Source: Streptomyces vietnamensis (GTDB taxonomy: Bacteria; Actinomycetota; Actinomycetes; Streptomycetales; Streptomycetaceae). From it: DNA of 64,000 nucleotides. Position 1 is the first letter of the stretch. Every line of letters starts with the position of its first letter. The position numbers and the translations under genes were made by a program. The notes under the pieces were generated by a model that ran no database searches, was not told the DNA's origin, and saw nothing but the letters and a program-made list of their open reading frames with translations. The stretch is taken from the NCBI RefSeq assembly GCF_000830005.1, contig NZ_CP010407.1, forward strand, positions 5,398,001 to 5,462,000. The letters are read 5' to 3'. This document shows positions 14,086 to 43,992 of this stretch, one piece after another.

Positions 14086-14192
14086 GGTGAGTCAACCTCC
14101 TGAAAAAGATGAGCACTTCTCTTGTTCGATGTATTCCCAAGGGGCGTACCGGCCAGTAAAAACCGTGGGTAACCCCACTTCCAGGAGGCGCA

Positions 14193-15722
14193 ATGAAGCG
14201 CACCAGGTACAGACTCCGCTGGCCCGTCGCGGCCGTCGCCGCAGCCGCGGCGGCCCTCGGCAGCATGACCGCCGCCGCCCCCGCCGGCGCGGCCGACACG
14301 AGCACCGCGGCCGGAATCACCTCCGTACCGCTCTCCCCCGAGCTGGAGGCGATCCGGGCGGCCGAGGCCACCAAGATCTACGGCAGCCCCGAGGAGCGCC
14401 CGCTCGCCCAGCGCAAGACCGGCCTGATCTCGCTGGGCGACAGCGAGATCTCCGGCGAGGGCGTCGGCACGTACGAGTCCCCCACCAACGGGCCCACCAA
14501 CTGGTGCCACCGCTCCCCGGACGCCGCCATCCACCGCACCGGGATCCCCGCGGACCTCACCTTCAACGTCGCCTGCTCCGGTGCGTACACCGGCAACATC
14601 AGGATCGGCGGCTCCAAGCAGTACGCCGACGAGCTCGTCCAGAGCGACAACCTCGCGGTCAAGGCCCGCAACACCCGCATCAAGATGGTCCTGCTCGTCG
14701 CCGGCGCCAACGACGACCTGCAGTTCGGGCCCGTCATGACCGACTGCGTCCAGCGGTTCGTGCTCAGCCAGGGCACCTGCGAGCCCAAGTACGCCCCCGG
14801 CTGGCAGGCCCGCGTCGACGGGCTCGTCCCCAAGGTCGAGCAGACGGTCCGCGACCTCAAGACCGTCATGCGGGACGCCGGATACGCCGACGGCGACTAC
14901 AAGCTCGTCGTCATGGGCTACCCCAGCCCGATCGGCCCCGACTTCTACGACAACCCGAACTTCCCCGGCAAGCTCGCCTGCGGCGGCATGGGCTACGACT
15001 CCGACACCAAGTGGGGCCGCAACAGCGCCGTTCCCGCCTTCGAGCGCGGCATGCGCAAGGTCGCGGCCGACACCGGGGCCACCTACCTCGACAACTCGCG
15101 CCTCTTCAACGGCCACGAGGTCTGCATGGAGGACACCTGGGCCCGGGGCCTCTACATCGACCTCTCCAAGCCCGGCGGCCTCGACGAGAACTCCGTACGC
15201 CAGTCCTTCCACCCCAACAGGAGCGGCCACGGCGCCTTCGCGTCCTGCCTCACCCAGATCTACAACTCGGGCCTGCGCGAGGCGAGCTGCGCCGACGTCA
15301 ACTCCTCCGGCACCCCGACGCTCTTCCCGCTCGCCTGGGACGACGCGTACCAGCCGCTGAAGAACCAGGCGACCGGCAACTGCCTCGACGTCAACGCCTC
15401 CGAGTCGGCCAACGGCACCGCCGTCCTCGGCTGGGACTGCCACGGCGGCCGCAACCAGAACTGGTGGTACGACTCCGCCCGGCAGACCGTCCACACCCAG
15501 CTCACCCAGGACCGCTGCCTGGACGTCCCGGGCGCCGTCTACCAGACCGGCAAGGCGCTCATCATCTGGAACTGCAGCGGCGCCGCCAACCAGAAGTTCG
15601 TCCGTGACGGCGCCACCGTCCGGCCCGCCGCCGCGACCGGACTCTGCCTCACCCAGGGCGCGGCGAAGGAGCCGATCCGGCTCCAGAACTGCGACGGCTC
15701 CGCGAACCAGAAGTTCGTGTAA
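14193..15722 (+). CDS. Secreted SGNH/GDSL esterase with ricin-B lectin domain
   Basis: 509 aa. A signal peptide with a long alanine-rich core ends near AGA-AD (about residue 34). The SGNH hydrolase domain has the nucleophile S84 in SLGDSEISGEG, the block II glycine near SGAYTGN (129-135), N173 in VAGANDD and H340 in SFHPNRSGHG, so the catalytic residues are complete. A ricin B-type beta-trefoil (about 385-509) with three QxW-like repeats (NQNWW, NQKF, NQKF) should bind carbohydrate. An aggaggc ribosome site lies 5 nt before the ATG. Likely a secreted carbohydrate- or lipid-ester hydrolase directed to polysaccharide. Confidence 0.88.
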   Translation: MKRTRYRLRWPVAAVAAAAAALGSMTAAAPAGAADTSTAAGITSVPLSPELEAIRAAEATKIYGSPEERPLAQRKTGLISLGDSEISGEGVGTYESPTNGPTNWCHRSPDAAIHRTGIPADLTFNVACSGAYTGNIRIGGSKQYADELVQSDNLAVKARNTRIKMVLLVAGANDDLQFGPVMTDCVQRFVLSQGTCEPKYAPGWQARVDGLVPKVEQTVRDLKTVMRDAGYADGDYKLVVMGYPSPIGPDFYDNPNFPGKLACGGMGYDSDTKWGRNSAVPAFERGMRKVAADTGATYLDNSRLFNGHEVCMEDTWARGLYIDLSKPGGLDENSVRQSFHPNRSGHGAFASCLTQIYNSGLREASCADVNSSGTPTLFPLAWDDAYQPLKNQATGNCLDVNASESANGTAVLGWDCHGGRNQNWWYDSARQTVHTQLTQDRCLDVPGAVYQTGKALIIWNCSGAANQKFVRDGATVRPAAATGLCLTQGAAKEPIRLQNCDGSANQKFV

Positions 15723-15881
15723 GGGGCAACCCCAGGAACGCCGTGGCCTCCGTCCGGTGCGGGACGGGGGCCACGGCCATGCCCGGAGCGGCCGGGCCTC
15801 ACCCGAACGGGCGAAGTCGCGCCGAGCACCGGACAATGTGAAGCGTGCCGAGGGGGACCCCCATCCCACGGGAGGCAGGAC

Positions 15882-16391
15882 ATGATCCGCAGCTTGAGGA
15901 CCGGTACGCTCGGCGTCTGTACGGCGGCGGCCATCGCGGCCGTCGCCTTCGCCGCCGCCCCCTTCTCCGCCTTCGCCGACGACGGAGAAGGCTTCGAGTT
16001 CACGCTCTACGCCAAGCAGGTCCCGCCCCCCGGGACGAACGAGAGCAGTCCGCCGCCCAAGGTCGGGGACCACCCCGTCTTCGCCGACGACCTCTACAAG
16101 ACCAAGGGCGGCGACACGGTCGGCCGCGACGGCGTGGCCTGCGCCGTGGTGCGCGTCTCCGGCGACCAGGTCGACATGAACTGCGTCGGCACCATCCTCC
16201 TCAACGGCGGACCCGGCGGACAGATCGCCGCCCAGGCCCTCACCACGTTCGACACCTCGAACGACACGCCGTCCGCCTTCGACCTCGCCGTCACCGGCGG
16301 CACGGGCGACTTCAAGAGCGCGCGCGGCTACATCCGTGTGACCCCCGACGGGGACTACGACCGGATGGACTTCCACATCACCAAGCGGTGA
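15882..16391 (+). CDS. Secreted allene oxide cyclase-like barrel protein
   Basis: 169 aa with a clear signal peptide (cleavage near AFADD, about residue 32). The mature part has the strand pattern of the AOC/dirigent eight-stranded barrel, ending in FDLAVTGGTGDFKSARGYIRV, the block that defines this fold in bacterial secreted proteins. Two cysteines (CAVV, NCVG) could form a disulfide. A gggaggcaggac ribosome site precedes the ATG. The function of bacterial members is not known; a small extracellular binding role is an inference from the fold. It ends 5 bp from the stop of the converging phosphatase gene. Confidence 0.7.
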   Translation: MIRSLRTGTLGVCTAAAIAAVAFAAAPFSAFADDGEGFEFTLYAKQVPPPGTNESSPPPKVGDHPVFADDLYKTKGGDTVGRDGVACAVVRVSGDQVDMNCVGTILLNGGPGGQIAAQALTTFDTSNDTPSAFDLAVTGGTGDFKSARGYIRVTPDGDYDRMDFHITKR

Positions 16392-29152: not shown

Positions 29153-30241
29153 GTGTCGCTCACGATCGGAATCGTCGGTCTGCCGAATGTCGGCAAGTCG
29201 ACCCTGTTCAACGCCCTGACCAAGAACGACGTGCTGGCGGCCAACTACCCGTTCGCCACGATCGAGCCCAACGTCGGCGTCGTCGGTGTCCCCGACCCCC
29301 GCCTGACCAAGCTCGCGGAGATCTTCGGCTCCCAGCGCATCCTCCCGGCGACGGTCGACTTCGTCGACATCGCGGGCATCGTGCGCGGCGCGAGCGAGGG
29401 CGAGGGCCTGGGCAACAAGTTCCTCGCGAACATCCGCGAGTCGGACGCGATCTGCCAGGTCATCCGTGCCTTCAAGGACGAGAACGTCGTCCACGTCGAC
29501 GGCAAGGTCTCGCCGAAGGACGACATCGAGACGATCAACACGGAGCTGATCCTCGCGGACCTCCAGACGATCGAGAAGGTCCTGCCGCGCCTCCAGAAGG
29601 AGATGCGGATCAAGAAGGACACGGCGCCCAAGGTCGCCGCCGTCGAGGCCGCCCAGGCGATCCTGGAGAAGGGCGACACCCTCTTCTCGCAGGGCATCGT
29701 CCAGGGCTCGGAGAAGGCGGAGCTCCTGCACGACCTCCACCTCCTCACCACGAAGCCGTTCCTGTACGTCTTCAACGTGGACGAGGACGAGCTGACGGAC
29801 GAGGCCTTCAAGGCCGAGCAGAGCGCCCTGGTCGCCCCGGCCGAGGCGATCTTCCTCAACGCCAAGCTGGAGGCGGACCTCGCCGAGCTCGACGAGGAGG
29901 ACGCCATGGAGCTCCTCCAGTCCGTCGGCGCCGAGGAGCCCGGCCTCGCCACCCTCGCCCGCGTCGGCTTCGCCACCCTCGGCCTCCAGACCTACCTGAC
30001 GGCCGGCCCGAAGGAATCCCGCGCCTGGACGATCAAGCAGGGCGCGACGGCCCCCGAGGCGGCCGGTGTCATCCACACCGACTTCCAGAAGGGCTTCATC
30101 AAGGCCGAGGTCATCTCCTTCGCCGACCTCGTCGAAACGGGCTCGGTCGCCGACGCCCGCGCCGCCGGCAAGGCCCGCATGGAGGGCAAGGAGTACGTCA
30201 TGCAGGACGGCGACGTCGTGGAGTTCCGCTTCAACGTCTGA
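29153..30241 (+). CDS. ychF: Redox-regulated ATPase YchF (Obg family)
   Basis: 362 aa, full length. G1 is GLPNVGKSTLFNALT, then NYPFATIEPNVG, G3 DIAGIV, and a helical insertion, followed by the C-terminal TGS domain (about 278-361). YchF binds ribosomes and prefers ATP. The GTG at 29153 follows aggaa. The last 17 bases of the sense sequence (30223-30239, encoding FRFNV) are the left attachment repeat of an integrated island. The gene stays intact because the repeat restores its 3' end. Confidence 0.95.
   Translation: MSLTIGIVGLPNVGKSTLFNALTKNDVLAANYPFATIEPNVGVVGVPDPRLTKLAEIFGSQRILPATVDFVDIAGIVRGASEGEGLGNKFLANIRESDAICQVIRAFKDENVVHVDGKVSPKDDIETINTELILADLQTIEKVLPRLQKEMRIKKDTAPKVAAVEAAQAILEKGDTLFSQGIVQGSEKAELLHDLHLLTTKPFLYVFNVDEDELTDEAFKAEQSALVAPAEAIFLNAKLEADLAELDEEDAMELLQSVGAEEPGLATLARVGFATLGLQTYLTAGPKESRAWTIKQGATAPEAAGVIHTDFQKGFIKAEVISFADLVETGSVADARAAGKARMEGKEYVMQDGDVVEFRFNV
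30223..30239. repeat. Left attachment site (attL core)
   Basis: gttccgcttcaacgtct, identical to 43976-43992. It forms the last codons of ychF. The bases on either side differ between copies, so the core is 17 bp. Confidence 0.8.
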
Positions 30242-30851: not shown

Positions 30852-33800
30852 ATGAGTGCGGTCGGCTCGCCCGGCACCCAGGACGCCAAACTGGCCAGGC
30901 TGGCCCAGCAGTCGCGGAACTTCGGTTTTCTGCTGCCGCATACTCCCCTGCTCGTGGCCTACGGGGCAGCAGCCGAGAGTTACGTCTTCAGCGACCCCAA
31001 TACTTCCTTGATCAAGTCGAGGCAGTTCGGTGAGACGCTCGCGGCGGACCTGGTCCGCAGGGCGCGGATCAGGAACGCGGGCACCACACAGTTCGAGCGG
31101 CTGAAGGCCCTCGACACGGAGGGGTACCTGCACGGAAACGTCGGGGCCGCCTTCCACGAGGTCCGCGCCTTCGGCAACGACGCCAACCATGGTGACCACG
31201 ACAACTCCGACGACGCATTCCGGGCCCTGCGATCCTGCTTCAGGCTCGGAGTCTGGTACCACCGCCTGCTGACTGGCTCGCGCGAGCAGATCGCATTCGT
31301 ACCCCCGGACCCGGCCCGTACGCCGGCCGCACGCAACCAACGTCTGCGCGATGAGGTGGCCCAGGCCCGCAAGGCCCTCGAAGAGGCCCGACTCACTTAC
31401 CAGGACCAGGCGTCCAAGGCGGAGGCCGAACAGGCGGCTCGGGCCGCCGCCGAACGTGAGCTCTCCGCGGCTCGCGCCGAACAAGAGGGTCTCGCCCGTT
31501 CGATCGCTGCGCTCCAGGAGCAGCTGAAGCACGTCGAAGCGGCCCAGGAGGCCGACTACGCACGGCAGCGCCGGGCCGAAGCCACCGACAGCTCGGCGGC
31601 CTCCGCCGCCGTCGCGGAGCGCGCCCGCCTCCTCGACAACGCCGAAGCGGCCGCCCGCGAGCCCCTCACCGAGGTACAGGTTCGCGCCCGCCTCGACCAG
31701 ATGCTCACCGAGGCGGGCTGGCAGGTCCAGGACATCGCGGAGCAGAACCTTTGGCATCAGGGCGACCACCGGGGCAACGGCGTCGCCGTCCGCGAGACCA
31801 CGACAGCACGCGGCCGGGCCGACTACGCGCTGTACGTGGACCGCAAGCTGGTCGGTGTCATCGAGGCCAAGCGCGAAGGAGCCGACCTGTCCGCTGCCGA
31901 GGCTCAGGCCGACCGGTACGCCGACCACCCCACCGACGCCCAGCAGCGCATGCTCGCTTGGAGGCGAGAGGAACCCCTGCCGTTCCGTTACGTGAGCGAC
32001 GGCGGTGAGACCCGCTTCCGCAGCACCCTCGACCCCGACTCCCGTACCCGCCGGCTCTTCTCCTTCCACCAGCCACGCACCCTGGCCCGCTGGATCCGCC
32101 AGGCCGACGAAGACCCACAGGCCCCGAGCTACCGCGCCCGTCTCCGCTGGCGCATGCCCGAACTGGACGAGCGCCCGCTGCGCCCTGCGCAGATCTCCGC
32201 TGTCCGCGGGGTCGAGGACTCGGTAGCCCTCGGCCGGGGCCAGCAGGGCATGGGTCAATCCCGTTCTCTGGTGCAGATGGCCACCGGCGCTGGCAAGACC
32301 TTCACTGCGGTGACCTTCTCGTACCGGATGCTGAAGCATGCGCGCGCCGAGCGAGTCCTCTTCCTCGTCGACCGCAACAACCTGGGCGACCAGGCAGTCG
32401 CCGAGTTCGAGAACTTCATCACCCCCGACGGTGCCCGCAAGTTCGCCGACCTCTACCACGTCCAGCGGCTCGGCGCCGAAGGCATGAAGCCGTCGTCCAA
32501 GGTGGTCGTGTCCACCGTCCAACGCCTGTACATGGAACTGACCGGCGAACGCCCGACGGGCGCCCTCGTGGAAGACGCCGAGGGAGAACGGGCCTACGAT
32601 ATTCCCGGCCCGGTCGAGGTTGGCTACAACCCGGACATCCCGCCGGAGTCCTTCGACCTGATCGTGGTCGACGAGTGCCACCGCTCCATCTACGGCAAGT
32701 GGCGCTCGGTCCTGGAGTACTTCGACGCGCCTATCGTGGGCCTCACCGCCACTCCGGTCGCGCAGACCTTCGGCTATTTCAACGGCAACCTGGTCAGCGA
32801 GTACACCTACCAGGAGGCCGTCGCCGACGGTGTCAACGTCGACTTCTCCGTGTACGAGATCGGCACCCGTATAACGGCCGAGGGCGGTGTCATCGCCCAG
32901 GGCACCATCCCGGTCCGAGACCGGCGCACCCGACGCCAGCGCTACGAGGACCTCGACGAGGACGTCGAGTACGGCGCGAACCAAGTCGGTGTGGGCGTCA
33001 TCAGCAAGGACCAGCTGCGCACCGTGATCCGCACCTTCCGAGAGCGGCTCTTCACCGAGATCTTCCCCGAGCGCGGCAAGCGCGACGGTTCCAATGGTGA
33101 GCTGCTGTGGGACGAGATGTACGTCCCCAAGACCCTGATCTTCGCGAAGAACGACAACCATGCCGAAGAGATCGTCGAAGTCGTCCGTGACGTCTTCGGC
33201 AAGGGCAACGACTTCTGCGCCAAGATCACCCACGCGGCGAAGAAGGCTGATGAGCGCCTGGCGGACTTCCGTAACCTGCCTCAGCTGCGGATCGCCGTCA
33301 CCGTCGACATGATCGCCACCGGTACCGACGTCAAGCCCTTGGAATGCCTGCTCTTCCTGCGTGACGTGAAGAGCTGGGCATACTTCGAGCAGATGAAGGG
33401 CCGCGGCGCCCGCACCCTCTCCCTCACCGAGTTCGAGAAGGTGACGCCCGGCGTCGGCCCAAAGACCCGCTTCGTCATCGTCGACGCGGTGGGCGTCACG
33501 CAGAAGAAGAAGGTCGACGCGGCCCCTCTGGAGCGCCACACCGAGAAGCAGGTCAGTTTGGAGAAGCTGCTGCGGAAGGCCGGGGCCGGCACCATCGAGG
33601 AGGAAGAGGTCTCCACCCTCGCCGCCCGCCTTGCCAAGCTCGACATCCAGATGACCCCTGAGGAGCGCGGCGAGATCGAGCAGCTTACCGGCGGCCGCCC
33701 CCTCAAGGGGATCATTCACGGCATGGTCCGCGCGGTCTCGGCCGACGACCAGCAGAAGGTACGGGACGCCGCCCACCTGACCGGCCGCGACCCCGAGCGG

Positions 33801-34535
33801 GAGGTGCGGGCGCTCATCGACCACGCCGTCCAGCCCCTCGCTGCTGCCCCGAAGCTGCGTGCCCGGCTACTCGAGATGCGTCGCGCAAAGGACATCCTCT
33901 ACGACGAGACCAGCCGAGACGAGCTGGTCACCGCAGGTGCGGTGGTGGAGAACGAGGCGGCCTCCCGGGATGTCGTCACCAGCTGGCGGCAGTACATCGA
34001 TGCCAACCGCGACGAAATCGCCGCCCTCGCCATCGCCTTCAACGCCGGCTCCGACACCCCACCGGCTGACGCCCTGCGACACTTGCAGAACGTGGCCCGT
34101 GCCATCGCCCGTCCCCCACGCGCCTGGACCCCGGACCGCCTGTGGACCGCCTACGAGCAGGTCGGCGAGGCCGCACTACGTGGTGCTCAGACGCGCCGGA
34201 CCGCGGCCGACCTCCTCGCTCTGCTCCGCTACGAACTCGCCGGCGGAGCCGAACGCGGCGCCCCCCAACCGATTCCGCACGAGGAACGCGTCCGCGAACG
34301 CTACGCGGCCTGGCTCACCCGCCAACATCAGGCAGGCGTCCGTTTCAGCGACCGTCAGCGCTGGTGGCTCGACCACATCGCAGCCGCCACGATCGAACGT
34401 GTACGCTTCGACACCGCCGACCTCGACTATGCCCCGTTTGCCGCCCGTAACGGTACGGACGGCTTCCTCGCCGAATTCGGCGAACGGCAGGCAGAACACA
34501 TCATCGACGAACTCGACAGGGAGCTGAGCGCGTGA
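30852..34535 (+). CDS. hsdR: Type I restriction enzyme R subunit
   Basis: 1227 aa. An N-terminal DUF4145-like helical domain (about 1-145, AFHEVRAFGNDANHGD) is followed by a long charged coiled coil (about 165-270). The nuclease domain has D324 in GRADYAL and E338-A-K340 in GVIEAKREG. Superfamily 2 translocase motifs are ATGAGKT (477-483), DECH (607-610) and TATP (632-635), and the C-terminal EcoEI-like domain binds the methylase core. The subunit cuts unmodified DNA after ATP-driven translocation. The ribosome site is weak. The stop overlaps the hsdS GTG (GTGA). First gene of an hsdR-hsdS-hsdM transcript. Confidence 0.95.
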   Translation: MSAVGSPGTQDAKLARLAQQSRNFGFLLPHTPLLVAYGAAAESYVFSDPNTSLIKSRQFGETLAADLVRRARIRNAGTTQFERLKALDTEGYLHGNVGAAFHEVRAFGNDANHGDHDNSDDAFRALRSCFRLGVWYHRLLTGSREQIAFVPPDPARTPAARNQRLRDEVAQARKALEEARLTYQDQASKAEAEQAARAAAERELSAARAEQEGLARSIAALQEQLKHVEAAQEADYARQRRAEATDSSAASAAVAERARLLDNAEAAAREPLTEVQVRARLDQMLTEAGWQVQDIAEQNLWHQGDHRGNGVAVRETTTARGRADYALYVDRKLVGVIEAKREGADLSAAEAQADRYADHPTDAQQRMLAWRREEPLPFRYVSDGGETRFRSTLDPDSRTRRLFSFHQPRTLARWIRQADEDPQAPSYRARLRWRMPELDERPLRPAQISAVRGVEDSVALGRGQQGMGQSRSLVQMATGAGKTFTAVTFSYRMLKHARAERVLFLVDRNNLGDQAVAEFENFITPDGARKFADLYHVQRLGAEGMKPSSKVVVSTVQRLYMELTGERPTGALVEDAEGERAYDIPGPVEVGYNPDIPPESFDLIVVDECHRSIYGKWRSVLEYFDAPIVGLTATPVAQTFGYFNGNLVSEYTYQEAVADGVNVDFSVYEIGTRITAEGGVIAQGTIPVRDRRTRRQRYEDLDEDVEYGANQVGVGVISKDQLRTVIRTFRERLFTEIFPERGKRDGSNGELLWDEMYVPKTLIFAKNDNHAEEIVEVVRDVFGKGNDFCAKITHAAKKADERLADFRNLPQLRIAVTVDMIATGTDVKPLECLLFLRDVKSWAYFEQMKGRGARTLSLTEFEKVTPGVGPKTRFVIVDAVGVTQKKKVDAAPLERHTEKQVSLEKLLRKAGAGTIEEEEVSTLAARLAKLDIQMTPEERGEIEQLTGGRPLKGIIHGMVRAVSADDQQKVRDAAHLTGRDPEREVRALIDHAVQPLAAAPKLRARLLEMRRAKDILYDETSRDELVTAGAVVENEAASRDVVTSWRQYIDANRDEIAALAIAFNAGSDTPPADALRHLQNVARAIARPPRAWTPDRLWTAYEQVGEAALRGAQTRRTAADLLALLRYELAGGAERGAPQPIPHEERVRERYAAWLTRQHQAGVRFSDRQRWWLDHIAAATIERVRFDTADLDYAPFAARNGTDGFLAEFGERQAEHIIDELDRELSA

Positions 34536-36073
34536 CGGGGACCGCCGTGGACGTCGCGGAAATTAGGGAAATCGGGGGCGTGGCCTCCGGCGGCGGGAAT
34601 TCCGGAATGGTGGGCGGCGGAGGCGAGTCGGACCTTCCTAATGGTTGGGCTCGCGCGACGCTCGGTGAACTTGGCGAATGGTTCGGCGGAAGCACTCCGT
34701 CGAAGCGGAACCCGCACTACTGGTCAGATGGGACGATCCCCTGGCTATCCCCCAAGGACATGGGGGAGGCAGTCCTCTCCGGCACGCAAGATTTTATTCA
34801 CGAATCAGCCATCAAAGAAACCAACCTCAAGCTAATCCCGGCCGGTTCGGTTACCTTCGTCGTCCGTTCTGGAATTCTCGAACGCAAAGTCCCAGTCGCT
34901 TACGTCCCCTTCGAAGTGACCCTCAACCAGGACATGAAGGCGATCGCGCCACACGATGGAATCGACGCACGTTGGCTGGCGGCAGCGATCAAGGCGAGCG
35001 AGCATCGAATTCTCACCCAGTGCCGAAAGCAGGGAACAACCGTCGCTTCCCTCGAAGTTCCGTGGCTGCAAGCGTTCGAAATCCTTGTTCCGCCGCTCGC
35101 CGAGCAGCGCCGCATCGTCGCAAAACTGGACGAGCAGCTGACTCGCGTCAAGGCCGGTGAGCGCTCCGTTCAGGCAGCCCTAAGTAAGTGCGACCTCTTC
35201 ATGGAACAGATCCTCGCCCTGGGAACCAGCGGTGGCCTGAGTCACACTGATCGATTCCCTACCGATATTTCACCTGCAGACTCAGACGACGGCGAACTCC
35301 CTGATCTTCCTGTCGGATGGACTTGGAGGCGACTTGGTGAGATCGCAGCCGTCGTCGGTGGAATCACCAAGGACAGCAAGAAACAGGGCGATCCGGACTA
35401 CGTCGAAGTCCCCTATCTTCGCGTAGCTAATGTGCAACGCGGTCGGCTCATACTGGACAGAGTAGAAACTATCCGGGTACCCCCTGCTAAGGCCGAATCT
35501 CTCCGGCTGGTCCCGGGAGACGTACTCCTCAACGAGGGAGGAGACCGTGACAAGCTCGGCCGGGGATGGATCTGGGAGGCGCAAATCGATGACTGCATTC
35601 ACCAGAATCATGTCTTCCGAGCCCGTGTAATTGGTGATGTTCTTTCACCTCTACTCCTCGCATGGCATGCGAACAGTTTCGGGAAGTCCTGGTGCGACCG
35701 CAATGGCAAGCAGACAGTGAACCTCGCGTCGATCAGCCTTCGCAAGATAAAGCTGCTCCCTGTCCCTGTTCCTCCACGTGATGAGCAAGACGATCTGGTC
35801 CAGCTCATCGAGAACTACGTGGAACAAGCCGAAGTCTTTCGGCAGACAGCGAAGGCGTCCCTTGCACAGGTTGCCGACCTAAGAGCCGCTCTCCTGCACG
35901 CCGCCTTCACTGGCACCCTTGTCCCCCAGGACCCCACCGACGAGCCCGCTTCCGTACTGCTCGACCGCATCCGCGCTCAGCGCTCCGCCGCCAGCACGAG
36001 GAGCACGCGCCGCCGCGCCCCGCGCACCAGCAAGTCGACCGGCAATCCCGGTCAGGGAGAACTACCCCTGTGA
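34532..36073 (+). CDS. hsdS: Type I restriction specificity subunit S
   Basis: 513 aa with two target-recognition domains. Each opens with the family phrase: LPNGWARATLGEL (about residue 35) and LPVGWTWRRLGEI (about residue 260), and each ends in the conserved helix preceded by VPPLAEQRRIVAKLDE and VPPRDEQDDLVQLIEN. The subunit chooses the bipartite DNA site for both methylation and cutting. A 34-residue Gly-rich leader is unusual; an internal ATG at residue 26 could be the true start. GC drops visibly in both recognition domains, as in exchanged hsdS alleles. GTGA overlaps join it to hsdR and hsdM. Confidence 0.93.
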   Translation: MTGTAVDVAEIREIGGVASGGGNSGMVGGGGESDLPNGWARATLGELGEWFGGSTPSKRNPHYWSDGTIPWLSPKDMGEAVLSGTQDFIHESAIKETNLKLIPAGSVTFVVRSGILERKVPVAYVPFEVTLNQDMKAIAPHDGIDARWLAAAIKASEHRILTQCRKQGTTVASLEVPWLQAFEILVPPLAEQRRIVAKLDEQLTRVKAGERSVQAALSKCDLFMEQILALGTSGGLSHTDRFPTDISPADSDDGELPDLPVGWTWRRLGEIAAVVGGITKDSKKQGDPDYVEVPYLRVANVQRGRLILDRVETIRVPPAKAESLRLVPGDVLLNEGGDRDKLGRGWIWEAQIDDCIHQNHVFRARVIGDVLSPLLLAWHANSFGKSWCDRNGKQTVNLASISLRKIKLLPVPVPPRDEQDDLVQLIENYVEQAEVFRQTAKASLAQVADLRAALLHAAFTGTLVPQDPTDEPASVLLDRIRAQRSAASTRSTRRRAPRTSKSTGNPGQGELPL

Positions 36074-37725
36074 GCACCATGAGCACCGACAAGCCCGTCA
36101 CCACCTCGGCACAGGAGTCGCCCCAGGGAACCGTTCCCCTGGGGCCTCAGACCACGTCCAGGGCGACCGCGGTCGAGTCGACCAGCACTCTTGTCAACCG
36201 ACTCTGGTCGTACTGCGAGCTCCTGCGCCACTCCGGGGTCTCCACTCTCGATTACGTCGAGCAGCTCACGTACCTCCTCTTCCTGAAGATGGCGGACGAG
36301 CGGGCCAACCGCCCGGCCAAGTTCTGCCGCAACTTGCCGGAGGAGCCTCTCGTTCCTCCGGGCTGGGACTGGGCAAGCCTGACCACGCGCTCAGGTGACG
36401 CGTTGCTCGATCACTACGAGTTCGTCCTCAAGGACCTCGGTTCGCGCGGCGGCACCATGCTCGGCGAAGTCTTCGCGAAGTCAAGCAACAAGATCCACGA
36501 ACCGGCCGTCCTGGAGCGGCTGATCAAGGATCTGATCAACCCGTACCGCTGGACCACCGAGGACCAGGACCTGAAGGGCGACGCGTACGAGGGCCTGCTG
36601 CAGCGCGGCGCCGAGGACCGCAAGACCGGCGCCGGCCAGTACTTCACTCCCCGCCCTGTCATCGACGCCATGGTCGACTGTGTCCGGCCCCAGGTCGGCG
36701 AGACCATCACCGACCCAGCCTGCGGAACGGGCGGCTTTCTCATCGCCGCCCATGCCCACCTCAATCAGCACTACCAGGAACAGCTCTACGGTGATGAGGG
36801 CCGCAAGCTGCAAACCGGCGCGATCACTGGCTACGAGCTGGTCCGGGAGACCGCCCGTCTGGCGCTGATGAACATGCTGCTGCACAACATCGGCACATCC
36901 GAGGCCAAGCCACTGATCACCGTGCAGGACTCCCTGGCGAAGTCTCCCTCGCGGTTCTACGACATCGTCTTCGCCAACCCGCCCTTCGGCGTTGGCTCAG
37001 TGACGGGGGAGGCGTACACCGCCCGCAAGGACTTCTGGACCCAGACCACCAACAAACAGCTCAACTTCGTCCAGCACATCTACAACTTGCTGAAGACCAA
37101 CGGCCGGGCAGCCGTCGTCCTCCCCGACAACGTGCTCTTCGAGTCAGGTGCCGGCGAGACGATCCGCCGCAACCTGCTGAACCTGTGCGATGTGCACACG
37201 CTGCTGCGCCTGCCCACCGGCATCTTCTACGCCAACGGTGTCAAGGCCAATGTCCTGTTCTTCGACAAGACCGGCCAGCGCACCGGAGGCCGCCCCGGCA
37301 CCAGGCAGCTGTGGGTCTACGACTTCCGCACCGACCAGCGGTTCACCCTCAAGCAGCGGCAGCTGCGCCGCGAGCACCTGGACGACTTCGTCGCCGCCTT
37401 CCACTCGGGCGGCACCGATTTCTCCGCTCGCAAGCCCACTGATCGCTTCCAGGCTTACGATTACGAAGAACTGATCACTCGTGACAAGGTGAATCTCGAC
37501 CTGACCGTCCTCCGAGCGGGAACGGACTCCACACATACGGCCCTCGCGTCGCCTGACGTGATCGCCCAGGAGATCGTGGGTGAACTGGAGGCCGCTTTGG
37601 CCGAGTTCACCCTCGTTGCCCAGGCCCTGAAGAAGGAGGCAGCCCCGGAGAGGGGCACGGGAACGGGAGCGACCAGCACCACCGACGACGACAGCGATGA
37701 AGCAGGGGAAGCCCGCGCGGGGTAG
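36070..37725 (+). CDS. hsdM: Type I DNA methyltransferase M subunit
   Basis: 551 aa N6-adenine methyltransferase. The HsdM N-terminal helical domain (LWSYCELLRHSGVSTLDYVEQ, LLFLKMADERANRP) precedes the SAM-binding motif I at about residue 214 (TDPACGTGGFLIAA). The catalytic motif is N303-P-P-F306. LRLPTGIFYANGVKANVLFF follows as in the family. Acts with HsdS as a methylase, and with HsdR added as a restriction enzyme. The GTG overlaps the hsdS stop. A strong hairpin follows, ending this transcript. Confidence 0.95.
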   Translation: MSTMSTDKPVTTSAQESPQGTVPLGPQTTSRATAVESTSTLVNRLWSYCELLRHSGVSTLDYVEQLTYLLFLKMADERANRPAKFCRNLPEEPLVPPGWDWASLTTRSGDALLDHYEFVLKDLGSRGGTMLGEVFAKSSNKIHEPAVLERLIKDLINPYRWTTEDQDLKGDAYEGLLQRGAEDRKTGAGQYFTPRPVIDAMVDCVRPQVGETITDPACGTGGFLIAAHAHLNQHYQEQLYGDEGRKLQTGAITGYELVRETARLALMNMLLHNIGTSEAKPLITVQDSLAKSPSRFYDIVFANPPFGVGSVTGEAYTARKDFWTQTTNKQLNFVQHIYNLLKTNGRAAVVLPDNVLFESGAGETIRRNLLNLCDVHTLLRLPTGIFYANGVKANVLFFDKTGQRTGGRPGTRQLWVYDFRTDQRFTLKQRQLRREHLDDFVAAFHSGGTDFSARKPTDRFQAYDYEELITRDKVNLDLTVLRAGTDSTHTALASPDVIAQEIVGELEAALAEFTLVAQALKKEAAPERGTGTGATSTTDDDSDEAGEARAG

Positions 37726-37740
37726 GCCCGTCCTTCCGCC

Positions 37741-37787
37741 ACCCGAGTTCGGGCCGGGAGGCAACCGGCCGTGGCCCGAACTCGGGT
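37741..37787. terminator. Hairpin between hsdM and the second hsdM gene
   Basis: Perfect 15-bp arms (acccgagttcgggcc / ggcccgaactcgggt) with a 17-nt loop, 16 bp after hsdM. It divides the cassette into hsdR-hsdS-hsdM and hsdM2-AIPR units. Confidence 0.75.
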
Positions 37788-37811
37788 GACAGCGGAGGGA
37801 AGCAGAACGGT

Positions 37812-39368
37812 ATGGGTACGGGGCGGGGCAGTACTGGGTCCGGAAGCATGAGTGGGATGTCGGGGATTCCGCCGCAGAGTGGGCAGCTTGAGAGGCACTG
37901 GACCGCCGAATCGATCGTCCGCCGCTGGTGGGCGTTCTACAACGACAAGACCAGCACCCGGGCCCTGACAAAGATCGAGTTCGCTGAGCACATCGCCTAC
38001 CTGCTCTTCCTCAAGCTCGACCACGAACGCGCAAACCGGCCCGGCAAGTTCGCCTCCCGTCCGGTCGCGCCATCGATCGACACCTGGCCGCACCTGGTCG
38101 AACGCGGCGGCGAAGACCTCCACAGCTACCTGGCCCGCACCATGCGCACGCTCGGCACGCCAACCCCGGACAACCAGCGTCGCACCACCGCCAGTGTCCT
38201 CTTCCATGACGCACAGCCGTGGAACATCGACCGGATGAGCGAGCTGCGGCAGCTCATCACCGAGGAGATCAACCCGTACCGTTGGGCCCAGGTCCCCGAC
38301 GGCGAGCTCGGACGGGCCTTCGCCCAACTTCTCTCCGACTGCTACGACGACATGCTCAAGAAGCGCGAGACTGGGCAGTTCCTGACCCCACCGCCGCTCC
38401 TCGCCGTGGTCGCCAAGGCCCTCGCCCTCACCCCGGACGACCGGATCATCGACCCGGCCTGCGGCATTGGCAGCACGCTGATCGCCGCCCATCGGGAAAT
38501 GGAGGGCCACGGCACCAAGGTGGACGACTCCGCCATCGCGGGAGCCGACATCGATCCCCAGATGTGCCGTCTCGCCACCATGAATGTGCTCCTCAACACC
38601 CGCCGGCTGTTCGCGGGGATTCCCCCGATACAGCGTTCGGACTCCCTCTCCCGCAGGGCAAGGGCCATTCAGCGGCAGGATCGGGATGTCGCCGCGACCG
38701 TGGCTCTGTGCAACCCACCCTTCAAGAGCACCGACGCGGCTGTTGACACCACCCACCGCGACGACTTCTGGGCGCCCAAGGCGGACCTTCCCACCAACTT
38801 CCTCCAGCACATCGCCATCACCTTGCCGCAAGGTGCGCGAGCCGCCGTCTTCGCCCCCGACAGCGTGCTATTCGGTAAGGGCGCCGCGGCCACCGTACGC
38901 CGCAATCTGCTCCTCAACTGCGACGTGCACACTCTGCTGCGTCTGCCCACCGGCATCTTCCGGGGCACCAACTCCAAGGCGAACATCCTCTTTTTCACCA
39001 AGTCCGCCCCTCGCCCCAGCGGCGAGCCCGCCACGCGCGCCCTGTGGGTCTACGACGCCCGCACCGGCAACCACCGCACGGACACCGGCAACCCGCTCAC
39101 CGAGGACGACCTGTCCGACTTCCTCGCCGCCTACCGCCCGGACGACCCCGACCACAGCAGCCGTATCCCGTCACGCCAGTTCAAGCAGTACCCCGTAGCC
39201 GATCTTCTGGCCCGCCCCAGCACCAGCCTGGAGCTCTGGGCCAACCTCACCGAAGACCAGCAGGACCTTGGTTCCCCACGCGACATCGCGGCCTCCATCG
39301 TCGCCGAACTGAACAACGCGAGCAGCAGCTTCCAGGCCGTCGTGGACTCACTCGCCCCCGGCCAGTGA
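37812..39368 (+). CDS. Second HsdM-like N6-adenine DNA methyltransferase
   Basis: 518 aa, a full-length paralogue of the upstream HsdM. N-terminal domain: SIVRRWWAFYNDKTSTRALTK then FAEHIAYLLFLKLDHERANRPGKF. Motif I starts at the same residue (214) but reads DPACGIGSTLIAA; the catalytic motif is N301-P-P-F304. LRLPTGIFRGTNSKANILFF is shared with the first HsdM. No hsdS follows, so it either shares the one HsdS or works with the next gene. Start may be 37812 or ATG 37849. It is 58 bp from the AIPR gene on the same strand, likely one transcript. Confidence 0.88.
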   Translation: MGTGRGSTGSGSMSGMSGIPPQSGQLERHWTAESIVRRWWAFYNDKTSTRALTKIEFAEHIAYLLFLKLDHERANRPGKFASRPVAPSIDTWPHLVERGGEDLHSYLARTMRTLGTPTPDNQRRTTASVLFHDAQPWNIDRMSELRQLITEEINPYRWAQVPDGELGRAFAQLLSDCYDDMLKKRETGQFLTPPPLLAVVAKALALTPDDRIIDPACGIGSTLIAAHREMEGHGTKVDDSAIAGADIDPQMCRLATMNVLLNTRRLFAGIPPIQRSDSLSRRARAIQRQDRDVAATVALCNPPFKSTDAAVDTTHRDDFWAPKADLPTNFLQHIAITLPQGARAAVFAPDSVLFGKGAAATVRRNLLLNCDVHTLLRLPTGIFRGTNSKANILFFTKSAPRPSGEPATRALWVYDARTGNHRTDTGNPLTEDDLSDFLAAYRPDDPDHSSRIPSRQFKQYPVADLLARPSTSLELWANLTEDQQDLGSPRDIAASIVAELNNASSSFQAVVDSLAPGQ

Positions 39369-39426
39369 CACGCACCCTCCGAGTTCCCCACGCCCCATAC
39401 TCTTGACAGCCCCGCACGGGAGAACC

Positions 39427-41577
39427 ATGAGCACCCCTCCGCGCCGCCCCGAGGTTCCCACCCAGGTCCGCCAAGTCGCTAACTTCCTCGACGCGACGTA
39501 CGGCGGCCTCCTCGACATGAGCGACTTCGGCAACCGCAGGCCGGACGACCTCGTCATCGCGCGGCGATCCCGTGCCCTCGCCGCGCATGCCGTGCGCATG
39601 GTGACCGACTGGACGCCCGCCGAGGCGGCGGCCTGCGTCATCGACGGCGGCAACGACCAAGGAATCGACGCGATCGCCGTTGACCAGGACGCCGCGCACA
39701 TCTACCTAGTCCAGTCCAAGTGGAGCGAGACCGGCACTGCCAAAGCCGATGAAACCGCAGTCCTCAAACTGTTCTCGGGACTGACCCTGATTGACGCGGG
39801 GGAATCCCGCCAGTTCAATCCGCGCGGCCGCGTCCTGGCCGAGCAGGCCAAGTCGCTGCTGGGCTCGGACCTGACCAAGGTGACCCAGGTGATCGTCCTC
39901 ATGGGCACGAAGGAACTCGCCCCAGGGGTACGCCAGGCCATCGAGAACGGGGAGAAGGACTTCAACCATGACGGAACTCACATCTTCCACCGTGTGATCC
40001 ACTCGCCGGAGATCTACGCGCGAGCCCGTGACGATCAGAGGCCTGAGCCGATCACCCTCGAAGTGACGATGTCTCCATGGTTCGCATGCTCGCCCTCCGA
40101 CCAACAGGCCTACCAAGGCGTGGTGCAGGCCGAGCAGATCGTGGAATGGGCGGAGTACGGCAACCGACTCTTCGACCACAACATCCGCAACCCGCTCGGA
40201 CTGACACCCATCAACAGCGAGCTGGTGGAGACGCTCATCGAAGAGCCCGCCAACTTCTGGTACTTCAATAACGGCATCACCATTCTGTGCGACTCCTTGG
40301 AGATCGAGAAGGGATCCAAGAAGCAGCCGGAACGTCTCCCGCTCCGCCTCACCGCGCACGGTGCGAGCGTGGTGAACGGGGCGCAGACCGTACGGGCCGT
40401 CATAGACGCGGCGAAAGAGGAGGAGCAGGCGGAGTCGGCCGAGGTCGGGGTCCGCATCATCGTCACGGGCGGGGACACCGACTTCGCCCAGCGCACCACC
40501 CAGGCCACCAACCGGCAGAACCACATCACCGACCGCGACCGCATCGCCCTGGACCCCGTGCAGGCCGTCCTGATCGAGGAGTTCCGGGCCGAACTGGACC
40601 TGGTGTACAGCGTCCGTCGAGGCGAACTGGAGCCCCAGGGGGACGAGGGTTGCTCCGTCGTCGAGGCCGCGTGTGCTCTGGCCTGCGCACACTTCGCCAG
40701 CCGCTTCACGGCCCGGCTGGTGGCGGCCGACTCCACCGACGTGATATGGCAGCGAGGCAGCGGATCCATCTACGACCCGCTGTTCCGTTCCGTACCTGGA
40801 GTCTTCGAGGTCTGGAACGCCGTACGCGTCCTCCGCGAGACCCGCAAAGCCCTACGTATCGTGCGCGACGAGTACGAGAAGAGGGGAGCCGCCATCATCG
40901 ACGACGGAGCTTTCCTCCTCACCCACCTCGTCTTCCGCCAACTGCTCGCAGAAGACGCGGGCATGGGCGAGCCTGACCCCGCAGACCCCACCGCCACCTG
41001 GTTCGTCAAGGCAAGCGACCGGATCCCCGAACTGTTGGAGCGCACCGTACCCGTGATGCTCGGCGTACTGGACTCCCGGCACGGAACCCGCTCGGACCTC
41101 AAGCGAGTGTGCATCGACGACGCGGAGTGCGCAGCGCTCGTGAGCGATGTCCTGGACGTGCTGTCCGCAGGAGGCCAGACACAGGACGTGTCCCCGTACC
41201 TCCGCAAGGAAGAGCGGCCCCGCAAGCCGCGCCGCCCCAACTCGGTCCACGTCATCGTGAACCAAGGGGCACTCCCGGAAGGCGCACCCCTTCGCCTAAA
41301 CCTCTACGTACCAGCCGAGCAAGAAGCACTGGACACTTGGCTCGCAGCAGATGAGAGCCGCTCGCGTGCCTCGTGGACAGGGGAGACCGGCAAGGCCCTC
41401 ATCTGGGAGTACGACCGCCAGCGCTACTCGCCCAGCGGCCTGGTTTCCCGCATGTGGGAACTAGCCGGCTGGGAGGGACGACCGGTTTCCAACCAGGGCA
41501 CCGCCCGCTGGATGACCCAGGATGGCGAAACCCTTGCCGAACTCGCCGAACGCCTCCTGACAAACCTTGAGGTGTAG
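39427..41577 (+). CDS. AIPR-family protein with PD-(D/E)XK-like N-terminus
   Basis: 716 aa. AIPR (abortive infection phage resistance) signatures are LFDHNIRNPLG (about 248-258), FWYFNNGIT (277-285) and VNGAQTV (316-322). The N-terminal part has GIDAIAV with D81 and YLVQSKW with Q96-x-K98, the pattern of Mrr-like PD-(D/E)XK nucleases. A C-terminal segment (about 655-716, WEYDRQRYSPSGLVSRMWELAGW) is weakly like domains that accompany restriction genes. A gggag site lies 4-5 nt before the ATG; upstream GTG-type starts are less likely. Family members act in phage defence, probably by cleaving DNA. Context with hsdM2 supports that. Confidence 0.87.
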   Translation: MSTPPRRPEVPTQVRQVANFLDATYGGLLDMSDFGNRRPDDLVIARRSRALAAHAVRMVTDWTPAEAAACVIDGGNDQGIDAIAVDQDAAHIYLVQSKWSETGTAKADETAVLKLFSGLTLIDAGESRQFNPRGRVLAEQAKSLLGSDLTKVTQVIVLMGTKELAPGVRQAIENGEKDFNHDGTHIFHRVIHSPEIYARARDDQRPEPITLEVTMSPWFACSPSDQQAYQGVVQAEQIVEWAEYGNRLFDHNIRNPLGLTPINSELVETLIEEPANFWYFNNGITILCDSLEIEKGSKKQPERLPLRLTAHGASVVNGAQTVRAVIDAAKEEEQAESAEVGVRIIVTGGDTDFAQRTTQATNRQNHITDRDRIALDPVQAVLIEEFRAELDLVYSVRRGELEPQGDEGCSVVEAACALACAHFASRFTARLVAADSTDVIWQRGSGSIYDPLFRSVPGVFEVWNAVRVLRETRKALRIVRDEYEKRGAAIIDDGAFLLTHLVFRQLLAEDAGMGEPDPADPTATWFVKASDRIPELLERTVPVMLGVLDSRHGTRSDLKRVCIDDAECAALVSDVLDVLSAGGQTQDVSPYLRKEERPRKPRRPNSVHVIVNQGALPEGAPLRLNLYVPAEQEALDTWLAADESRSRASWTGETGKALIWEYDRQRYSPSGLVSRMWELAGWEGRPVSNQGTARWMTQDGETLAELAERLLTNLEV

Positions 41578-41676: not shown

Positions 41677-42069
41677 CTAGACGGTGCGGATGACAGGGGC
41701 GGGTTTGATGTCTTGGGCGTCGATGAGGGTGCGGATGTCGTTTGGGTCCGAGGTCCAGATGATGGCGCCGAGGCTGGCTGCCATGGTCGCGACGGTGGCG
41801 TCGACGATGTCGGAGGTGCCGGCCTTGCCGCAGAGGATGCCTGCGGCTTTGGCGGTTTCGATGCCGACGGGTACGACGTGGCACCCGGCGAGGAACTTGC
41901 CGAGTCTGACCTGGCGGCGGGAGTCCCGCCATGCCTGGCTGACGACGACGGACGGGACGTGGATGTCCCGGCCGTCGTCGAGGGCCAGGCTGTGGCGGGC
42001 CCACATGCGTCGGTCGTCGTTGTCGATGGCGATGAGCGCCCCGGCGTCGTACAGGTAGGGGATGTTCAC
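41677..42069 (-). CDS. vapC: PIN-domain toxin (VapC-like)
   Basis: 130 aa. Acidic PIN residues are D8 (YDAGALIAID), D87 and D90 (GTSDIVDATV) and D108 (TSDPNDI). The usual middle glutamate is replaced by glutamine in VVSQAWRD, as I recall for other actinobacterial members of this branch. VapC proteins are RNases that block translation by cutting tRNA or rRNA. The GTG start overlaps the antitoxin stop (GTGA), the standard toxin-antitoxin coupling. Confidence 0.85.
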   Translation of the reverse strand: MNIPYLYDAGALIAIDNDDRRMWARHSLALDDGRDIHVPSVVVSQAWRDSRRQVRLGKFLAGCHVVPVGIETAKAAGILCGKAGTSDIVDATVATMAASLGAIIWTSDPNDIRTLIDAQDIKPAPVIRTV

Positions 42070-42332
42070 GCGGCCGAGGCTCCCGGGCCGCTGACGTATT
42101 CGGCGTCGGCGGCGGCGAGGTCCGCGCGGGCGGCGGCGAGTTCTTCCGGGGTGAAGGCACCGTGTTCTGCCTGCCACTCCTGGATGACGGCCCGGCCGGC
42201 CCGCAGGCGCAGCTCGCGTTCGGCTGCTCCGGCGACGAGGCGGGAAAGTGGGATGCCTTCTTCCTTGGCTGCTCCGGCCAGGGCTTCGACCAGGGCTTCG
42301 TCGAGAGTGATAGTCACCTTCTTGGTAGCCAT
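42066..42332 (-). CDS. vapB: Ribbon-helix-helix antitoxin (VapB-like)
   Basis: 88 aa. N-terminal ribbon-helix-helix DNA-binding domain (KKVTITLDEALVEALAGAAK, then PLSRLVAGAAERELRL). The acidic C-terminal part (EELAAARADLAAADAEYV) should bind and neutralise the toxin. The ATG has TATGGT 6 nt upstream and no ribosome site, so the mRNA is probably leaderless. A 7-bp inverted repeat spans the start codon and -10 box and is the likely autoregulatory operator. Confidence 0.85.
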   Translation of the reverse strand: MATKKVTITLDEALVEALAGAAKEEGIPLSRLVAGAAERELRLRAGRAVIQEWQAEHGAFTPEELAAARADLAAADAEYVSGPGASAA

Positions 42333-42575: not shown

Positions 42576-43821
42576 GTGGCGAGCGTCTTTCAGAAGTGCA
42601 AGAAGGACGTCCAGGACCGGAACTTTCCCTGTGATCGTCCGCGGTGTCGGCATGGGTGGACGGTGCGGTACCGGGAGCCGGGCGGTAGGTGCGGGCGTCA
42701 GCGGGAGAGGTCGTTTCCCCGTCGTGTGGGCGCGGATGGAGCGGACGCTTTCGCCGACAAGGTGAGAACGACAAGAAGGCCGGCATTCGCTTTGATCCCG
42801 GGCAAGGGCTTGTGGCGTTGCGAGCCTGGGCTCAGCAGTGGCTGGAGCGACAGGTCGTAGGCGAGTCCACGCGCCGCAACTACGAAGGGTTCATCCGTAA
42901 CCATCTCGGGCCGCGCCTGGGACGGAAGACGCTGGCCGGGCTGGCGCGACGCGACTTCGAGGAGTTCGCCAAGGACCTGCATGCCTCCGGTGAGGGGTTG
43001 GCGGTCTCCACGGTCAATGGCCGGATGGTCATGGTGGCCGCCCTCATGGAGGCGGCCGTCGTCGACAAGCGAATCACGGAGAACCTTGCCCGAGGCATCC
43101 GGATATCCCGTAGGGATGCTGTGGCGGTGGACGAGGACGCAGTGCCGACACCAGCCGAGGTGGATCTGATCGCTGCGCACATCGCGCCACAGTTTCGCCT
43201 TGCCGTCTACCTTCAGTCCGGTACAGGTCAGCGGCCAAGCGAGGCCCTGGCTTTCTCCACCGAGTGCGGGCGGTCTGGCTTCGTAAGAGTCCGATGGCAG
43301 GTGAGTGCCAAGGCGCATCACGAGGACTGCCCGGCACTCTTTGTCCCCCTGAAACATCGGCTGGAGAAGGAGTACCGAGACATCCCCACCGCCCTGTTCG
43401 TCGAGCAGGAGATCGCTGCTCATCTCCGCAGGTGGAAGCCGGTGCCCGTGGTTTTGCCGGGCAAAAGGGCAAGCGGGTTCGACTCGAGACCTTCTTTGCG
43501 CCGCGTCAGCCTGGCGCCGGGGTTATGCCGTCCATCGCGTCCTACGGTTACCAATTCAAGAAGGCGTGCCTTCTGGCCGGCCTGGTCGATCTGGACGGCA
43601 AGGTCAAGTACACGCCTCGCAGCCTGCGGCACTTCTTCGCCTCCACCGCCCTGGCCAACGGTGTGCCGATCCACGAGGTGTCACGCTGGCTCGGCCACCG
43701 TTCGGTCAAGACGACGGTCGATATCTACGGTCATCTGCTGCCCAGTGCGTGGGAGCGCTGCCGGGAGATCTTGCAGCGCTCCATGCGGCCACTGCCCCCG
43801 GATGTGACGTCCCTGCCGTGA
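42576..43821 (+). pseudogene. Tyrosine integrase broken by two single-base deletions
   Basis: When frames are joined this is a normal-length Streptomyces site-specific integrase (about 414 aa). Frame 1 (from GTG 42576) reads VASVFQKCKKD to FADKV. After one missing base near 42764 the frame shifts to ENDKKAGIRFDP ... STRRNYEGFIRNHLGPRLGRK, the SAM-like core-binding domain and the start of the catalytic domain (RPSEALAF). A second missing base in the T run at 43452-43455 shifts to KGKRVRLETFF and the catalytic RSLRHFFASTAL / SRWLGHRS / VDIYGHL with the active tyrosine. Could also be assembly error. Confidence 0.82.
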
Positions 43822-43975: not shown

Positions 43976-43992
43976 GTTCCGCTTCAACGTCT
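43976..43992. repeat. Right attachment site (attR core)
   Basis: Identical 17 bp to the ychF 3' end. In phase it encodes FRFNV followed by TAG, a leftover of the original ychF end. Confidence 0.8.

Follow-up and report, generated by a model that had tools for sequence, protein, structure and literature searches.

A type I restriction-modification (R-M) gene cluster with two different methylase subunits and an adjoining gene of the AIPR family was found in Streptomyces vietnamensis (GCF_000830005.1). The DNA analyzed, here called the window, is the 64,000-nt stretch NZ_CP010407.1 5,398,001-5,462,000, read on the forward strand. The five genes, hsdR, hsdS, hsdM (M1), a second hsdM-like gene (M2), and AIPR, span window positions 30852-41577, all on the + strand. 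Our results showed that the set recurs at all the other loci found to encode a complete near relative of M2. The explanation that we favor, with slightly more confidence than doubt, is that both methylases belong to one type I enzyme with an M1-M2-S core, and that AIPR would be a second effector recruited to it.

Recurrence and evolution of the five-gene set

The preliminary description of this DNA had reported hsdR, hsdS, and hsdM overlapping by GTGA, followed by an hsdM paralogue and an AIPR protein with a PD-(D/E)XK motif. The open reading frames, the Pfam matches, and the invariant residues confirmed this. The GTGA overlap is present at both the R/S and the S/M1 junctions; M1 and M2 are separated by 86 bp, and M2 and AIPR by 34 bp (58 bp if AIPR starts at the ATG at 39427). 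The first three products have the features of type I subunits: HsdR matches HSDR_N, ResIII, SWI2_SNF2, and EcoEI_R_C, all above the Pfam cut-off, HsdS matches Methylase_S with 82 bits and the PADLOC model Specificity_I with 275 bits, and M1 has HsdM_N, the S-adenosylmethionine (SAM) motif, and NPPF. The fifth protein matches only AIPR (PF10592) in Pfam, with 112.4 bits against a cut-off of 25. A promoter scan gave 0 promoter-like sites, versus 1.0 in shuffled sequences, and terminators were below the shuffle count; the scan was given no weight.

The search for M2 covered 5.8 billion proteins. The best 120 matches, which were those considered, comprise a clade at about 52-95% identity, after which identity falls to 46-34%. 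In 84,980 species genomes, a pattern-based scan revealed 15 loci of the M2 clade. S, M1, M2, and AIPR were present in all 15 and R in 14, the contig of the remaining one (L041) ending at that point. Identities to the window genes were 75-96% for R, 77-95% for M1, 52-96% for M2, and 27-68% for S. A sixteenth complete case lies on a plasmid of Streptomyces sp. BHT-5-2. The composite arrangement suggested in the preliminary description, which had proposed to look for M2 and AIPR together in other genomes, is thus a recurrent one: each of the 16 additional loci that encode a complete, closely related M2 had the whole set (with hsdR beyond the contig end in L041), M2 and AIPR were together in 16 of 16, and the idea that they might never co-occur elsewhere did not hold. 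Nowhere in these 16 loci did we see an intact M2 that lacked R-S-M1. Linkage is also indicated, indirectly, for 16 more M2 proteins, whose longest contig is exactly as long as that of an AIPR among the best 120 matches.

Two forms of the set exist. In form A (the window, L033, L034, L035, L044, L046, and BHT-5-2), AIPR is downstream on the same strand. In form B (the other ten loci), AIPR is on the opposite strand, 0.2-2.9 kb from M2, and therefore is not co-transcribed with it; the form B proteins are 36-37% identical to the window AIPR.

The M2 clade is rare, with 3 of 295 sampled Streptomyces genomes encoding it (the window's included) and 5 of 323 in an overlapping sample. M1-type proteins of at least 77% identity occurred only in the three of the 295 genomes that have M2, the next best being 62% identical. 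Fifteen ordinary Streptomyces hsdRSM loci (M1 42-62% identical) contained no M2 and no AIPR within the 16-20 kb examined. AIPR was present in 52 of the 295 genomes. Besides that of the window, 55 AIPR places were found, of which 40 were fetched; two were M2 systems, one was a decayed copy of the system (L055), and 37 had no M2 and no hsdRSM genes of this lineage in the stretch obtained (6.7-20 kb). A probe for distant M2s in the class (P0073) gave 31 places in 29 of 394 genomes, mostly ordinary HsdM. Of the 22 places examined, two are M1 and M2 of the window, and the 20 given as loci all have ordinary HsdM motifs.

M2 also occurs where AIPR does not. Two Actinomadura-type loci, L140 (a contig of Actinomadura sp. 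7K507) and L141, have R-S-M1-M2 with no AIPR at the locus, and PF10592 had no match anywhere in these two genomes. Therefore, M2 would belong to the type I enzyme, and AIPR would be a later partner. In L140, M2 overlaps a gene for a protein of 216 amino acids (aa; 8616-9266) with a weak HEPN_RiboL-PSP match (20.7 bits vs. a cut-off of 28.4), which is possibly a different effector in the AIPR slot. For nine distant M2s (34-42% identical), the longest contig is exactly equal in size to that of an M1-type protein (64-74%), which suggests that they adjoin M1-type genes.

Distances between protein pairs are correlated at 0.90-0.99 among R, M1, M2, and AIPR, whether in form A, in form B, or across all 16 loci, and those of S correlate with the other four genes at only 0.06-0.22. 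This shows that R, M1, M2, and AIPR diverge in step while S, as far as sequence distances tell, is swapped by recombination. The ratio of nonsynonymous to synonymous substitution rates (dN/dS; NG86, five pairs, four for R) was 0.08-0.17 for R, 0.10-0.16 for M1, 0.11-0.28 for M2, 0.08-0.16 for AIPR, and 0.24-0.46 for S; both M2 and AIPR are under purifying selection.

In the AIPR tree (51 rows), the ten form B proteins are one clade (100/100), beside the non-M2 AIPRs L070, L071, and L068, and the six of form A with L055 are a separate clade (100/100), beside seven non-M2 AIPRs. When 16 contig-matched AIPRs and the plasmid copy were added in a second tree, the A clade comprised 23 labelled rows (100/98) with five unlabelled rows inside, and the B clade was again separate. 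Because the M2-linked AIPRs form two clades, either AIPR joined the M1-M2 system on two occasions or one AIPR was exchanged for another; in both cases, more than one event established or maintained the pairing. The tree of M proteins (87 rows) was made with a quick method and has SH-aLRT support only and long-branch warnings. It has M2 and its distant relatives on one side (100) and M1 and its partners on the other (98, a group that also contains one ordinary HsdM, L103), and both sides show the A/B split. L077 and L079 (= L037 and L038), L063_AIPR and L114_M1 (wrongly called starts), and the partial AIPRs of L093 and L094 were left out of trees and counts, L038_M2 is absent from the M-protein tree, and L159 is the same locus as L043.

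The M2 and AIPR proteins

M1 and M2 are about 38% identical, and, judged from this, M2 is a genuine but distant paralogue of M1 and no recent duplicate. In Pfam it matches N6_Mtase only, with no significant HsdM_N match, and it has no specificity domain of its own. The relative P0001 begins about 15 codons further in. In M2, NPPF and the motif I G-x-G are both retained. NPPF is present in 68 of 68 members of the clade and in 18 of 18 more distant M2s, and TGQ(F/I/T)L stands where AAEF would be in the M2 family (TGQFL in the window). An aromatic residue of the pocket is absent in 43 of the 68 relatives and retained in the window M2. In profile comparison with known structures, the matches of M2 include both PacII M subunits, and M2 is nearer to 2okc and EcoKI HsdM than to either of these. 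A single-chain model of M2 has the fold, and the C-terminal tail that packs on S in PacII, and both are compatible with an M1-M2-S heterotrimer. M2 probably binds SAM, and in the window lineage it probably still methylates adenine. Because the pocket is altered in most of the family, the role kept across most of it is probably asymmetry or state sensing within the complex.

The AIPR protein would start at the ATG at 39427, eight codons past the TTG, in agreement with its nearest relative, P0121 (716 aa). Its predicted layout is a PD-(D/E)XK nuclease domain (about residues 18-213), a ParB-like domain (about 226-375), and a helical C-terminal part. The PD-(D/E)XK-like residues D81, D85, D89, Q104, and K106 do not vary among the 41 AIPRs of alignment A2, nor among the 16 system AIPRs of both lineages. 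As a separate observation, one Streptomyces chromosome (G254:C1) has the same AIPR gene close to each of its ends, at 13958-15991 and at 11524845-11526878, in opposite orientations; this gene probably sits in the terminal repeats.

Insertion at ychF and neighboring genes

The five genes, an RHH/PIN pair, and an integrase lie in a 13.8-kb integrative element inserted at the 3' end of ychF and bounded by an exact 17-bp direct repeat (Table 1). By comparison, 384 size-matched pairs of segments drawn at random from the window shared exact matches of at most 14 bp. We regard the RHH/PIN pair (41677-42332) as a passenger of the element.

Table 1 Genes and repeats of the integrative element (positions in the window)
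Feature	Position	Strand	Properties
Left 17-bp direct repeat (candidate attL)	30223-30239	+	3' end of ychF
hsdR	30852-34535	+	1227 aa; DUF4145, HSDR_N nuclease, ResIII/SWI2_SNF2 (SF2 helicase), EcoEI_R_C (Pfam)
hsdS	34532-36073	+	513 aa; specificity subunit, Methylase_S; most variable gene of the set
hsdM1 (M1)	36070-37725	+	551 aa; HsdM_N and N6_Mtase; GQYFTP / DPACGTGGFL / NPPF
hsdM2 (M2)	37812-39368	+	518 aa; N6_Mtase; GQFLTP / DPACGIGSTL / NPPF; C-terminal tail helix kept
AIPR gene	39403-41577	+	724 aa from TTG; 716 aa from ATG at 39427
PIN-domain toxin-like frame	41677 upwards, overlaps the RHH gene	-	PIN 22.4 bits, just below the Pfam cut-off
RHH antitoxin-like gene	42066-42332	-	RHH_5 25.7 bits, just below the Pfam cut-off
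Tyrosine integrase	42689-43821	+	N- and C-terminal domains in two different frames; looks broken
Right 17-bp direct repeat (candidate attR)	43976-43992	+	exact copy of the left repeat

We compared the ychF locus of 11 relatives. Two of them, G004 (L143) and G012 (L151), carry DNA like the right flank about 40 bp past the ychF stop, the arrangement expected of an empty site. The other nine gave no match to the right flank within the 1.5 kb compared; of these, G008 carries a stretch of about 160 bp resembling the left end of the element past ychF, and G002 has a piece of hsdR there. In S. rimosus, too, the system adjoins ychF. The loci just past ychF (the S. rimosus system, G002, and G008) are L038 12392-16104, L148, and L152. 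The 3' end of ychF may be a defense-island hotspot.

HsdR opens with a DUF4145 (HEPN-clan) domain (30852-31400). Fusion of DUF4145 to type I R subunits has been described (PMC3506569; PMC3710099). As a possible regulator and sixth member of the set, we considered an XRE-DUF5753 gene, which may or may not be accompanied by a HATPase gene; the pair lies near the system at L033 1035-2582, among others. It was dropped because it is equally common near ordinary hsdRSM loci (8 of 15, vs. 9 of 16 for the system, counting XRE genes only), and the window itself has no XRE-DUF5753 gene.

Known systems and alternative explanations

We propose that R, S, M1, and M2 would act as one type I enzyme, whose methylase core would be M1-M2-S and not M1-M1-S. 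M1 would be the standard N6-adenine subunit, and M2 an old, faster-evolving paralogue occupying the second position on S. AIPR would be a PD-(D/E)XK nuclease fused to a ParB-like domain, possibly driven by nucleoside triphosphates. It may be held or licensed by the type I complex and attack nucleic acid once ordinary restriction is blocked or can no longer cope, much as proposed for PrrC next to EcoprrI. AIPR may kill the infected cell or may cut phage DNA only, and the abortive-infection backup suggested in the preliminary description would fit this explanation. Because only S changes by recombination, the set would be re-targeted by S swapping, and it travels on an integrative element.

The set shares features with several known systems. 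Like classical type I R-M enzymes (EcoKI/EcoE-like, R2M2S), it has the HsdR domains, an S of two-domain length, and an M1 with all motifs; unlike these, it has a second, divergent M at every related locus read, plus the AIPR gene. EcoprrI-PrrC is described as an hsdMSR cluster with a latent anticodon nuclease (PMC3506569; PMC3710099). It resembles the present set as a type I cluster with an extra nuclease thought to act on restriction failure, but PrrC consists of an ABC-ATPase and HEPN, whereas AIPR has predicted PD-(D/E)XK and ParB-like domains and would be latent only by analogy. No PrrC homologue (ABC NTPase with HEPN) was found in the set, its fifth protein giving an AIPR match only. The Lactococcus AbiR/LlaKR2I locus may be a further system for comparison. 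The AIPR domain is shared with AbiU/AIPR proteins and with MzaE of MZA. In PADLOC, the AIPR protein scored 98.6 bits for AbiU and 27 bits for MzaE, and the NCBIfam score for MzaE was 33.3 bits vs. a cut-off of 1050. A mad2-like methylase and a mad5-like S, as in MADS, scored above background, but ordinary HsdM and HsdS models score higher in PADLOC, and the NCBIfam scores are far below the cut-offs (MAD2, 114.9 for M1 and 44.8 for M2 vs. 720; MAD5, 18.9 vs. 400). Neither PADLOC nor NCBIfam contains a model of the five-gene set. Searches of the open-licence PMC literature gave no two-M type I system with AIPR, and a description in print elsewhere is possible. The remark in the preliminary description that the arrangement matched no named system agrees with this, since no name was found in these sources.

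Several observations weigh against our explanation. The form B AIPR genes stand on the other strand, up to 2.9 kb away. L055 (8665-11045) keeps an intact-looking AIPR (62%) with an M2 fragment of about 54 residues and no R, S, or M1; we take it for a decayed copy of the system. Loss of the pocket residue in 43 of 68 M2 relatives speaks against a normal second catalytic subunit. Plain co-inheritance would give equal in-step divergence, and, because defense genes cluster, the linkage of AIPR could be partly passive. The ParB likeness of AIPR is weak, a Foldseek search with the AIPR model gave no PDB match at E ≤ 0.001, and the backup role is drawn solely by analogy.

We consider it rather unlikely that the second M is redundant and that its type I system simply lies beside an unrelated AIPR abortive-infection gene in a defense island, their linkage being passive. 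Neighborhoods of AIPR and R-M genes have been called common in two papers (PMC3506569; PMC2292703), and about one-sixth of the sampled Streptomyces genomes (52 of 295) have AIPR. However, AIPR was near none of the 15 ordinary Streptomyces hsdRSM loci vs. all 16 with M2, and it appears to have been recruited twice and then to have diverged in step, with purifying selection on both genes.

Less likely again, the set may represent a third type of type I core, with an obligate M1-M2 pair in which M2, retaining SAM binding and NPPF but in most of its family without the aromatic pocket residue, would be a non-methylating sensor of site or SAM state that gates an exchangeable nuclease (the AIPR of form A, that of form B, perhaps the Actinomadura HEPN protein). 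If true, this type I enzyme would be able to exchange its alarm output as well as its S.

It seems improbable that AIPR is a second restriction arm, degrading foreign DNA that the type I complex marks or loads and leaving the host unharmed. The predicted make-up of AIPR, a DNase-type nuclease joined to a ParB-like domain as found in SspE, would suit this role, as would the strict linkage to one type I lineage. DNA cleavage by AIPR is, however, a prediction from sequence, and the L140 gene with its weak HEPN (RNase) match better fits interchangeable toxic effectors.

The preliminary description held that a type I system needs only one M. This was incomplete, as non-canonical type I enzymes such as PacII (PacII_M1M2S) use M1 and M2 (PMC9613975). 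According to that paper, two-M type I systems are known only as enzymes that make N6-methyladenine (m6A) and N4-methylcytosine (m4C), and NPPY and AAEF in M2 are the defining motifs of the m4C family. The present set likewise combines two different Ms with a single S and a single R, the fold and the S-packing C-terminal tail are retained in M2, and both PacII Ms are among its relatives of known structure. We nevertheless think it very improbable that M1 makes m6A on one half-site and M2 makes m4C on the other, with AIPR as an extra. By its motifs, M2 falls outside the m6A/m4C group as so defined, with NPPF throughout (68 of 68 and 18 of 18) and TGQ(F/I/T)L in place of AAEF; the M2 profile is nearer to 2okc and EcoKI HsdM, and the AIPR gene is an addition.

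Least probable of all is the suggestion of the preliminary description that M2 and AIPR form a methylase-guarded nuclease of their own, M2 marking the host and AIPR cutting unmarked DNA beside an unconnected hsdRSM: the genes are adjacent on the same strand in lineage A, AIPR has nuclease residues, and M2 keeps NPPF and G-x-G, but M2 has no specificity domain, follows R-S-M1 even in the two Actinomadura-type loci without AIPR and was never intact without these genes in the 16 loci read, and AIPR is mostly without M2 (37 of 40 fetched loci) and on the other strand in lineage B.

Our explanation of one M1-M2-S type I enzyme with AIPR as a recruited effector has known families as its parts; the combination of a two-M type I system with AIPR is new as a set within the sources searched. 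It raises the question of why a second M with an altered pocket is kept, given that in the only two-M type I systems described (PMC9613975) this subunit makes m4C. That restriction may be coupled to a suicide or backup nuclease has long been proposed from gene neighborhoods, PrrC being the case studied in detail. In the present set, one type I lineage appears to have taken up AIPR twice, and its relatives (0 of 15 ordinary hsdRSM loci, and the two M1-M2 loci) are without it. This is a clean natural design, and the coupling would therefore be testable by adding or removing one gene.

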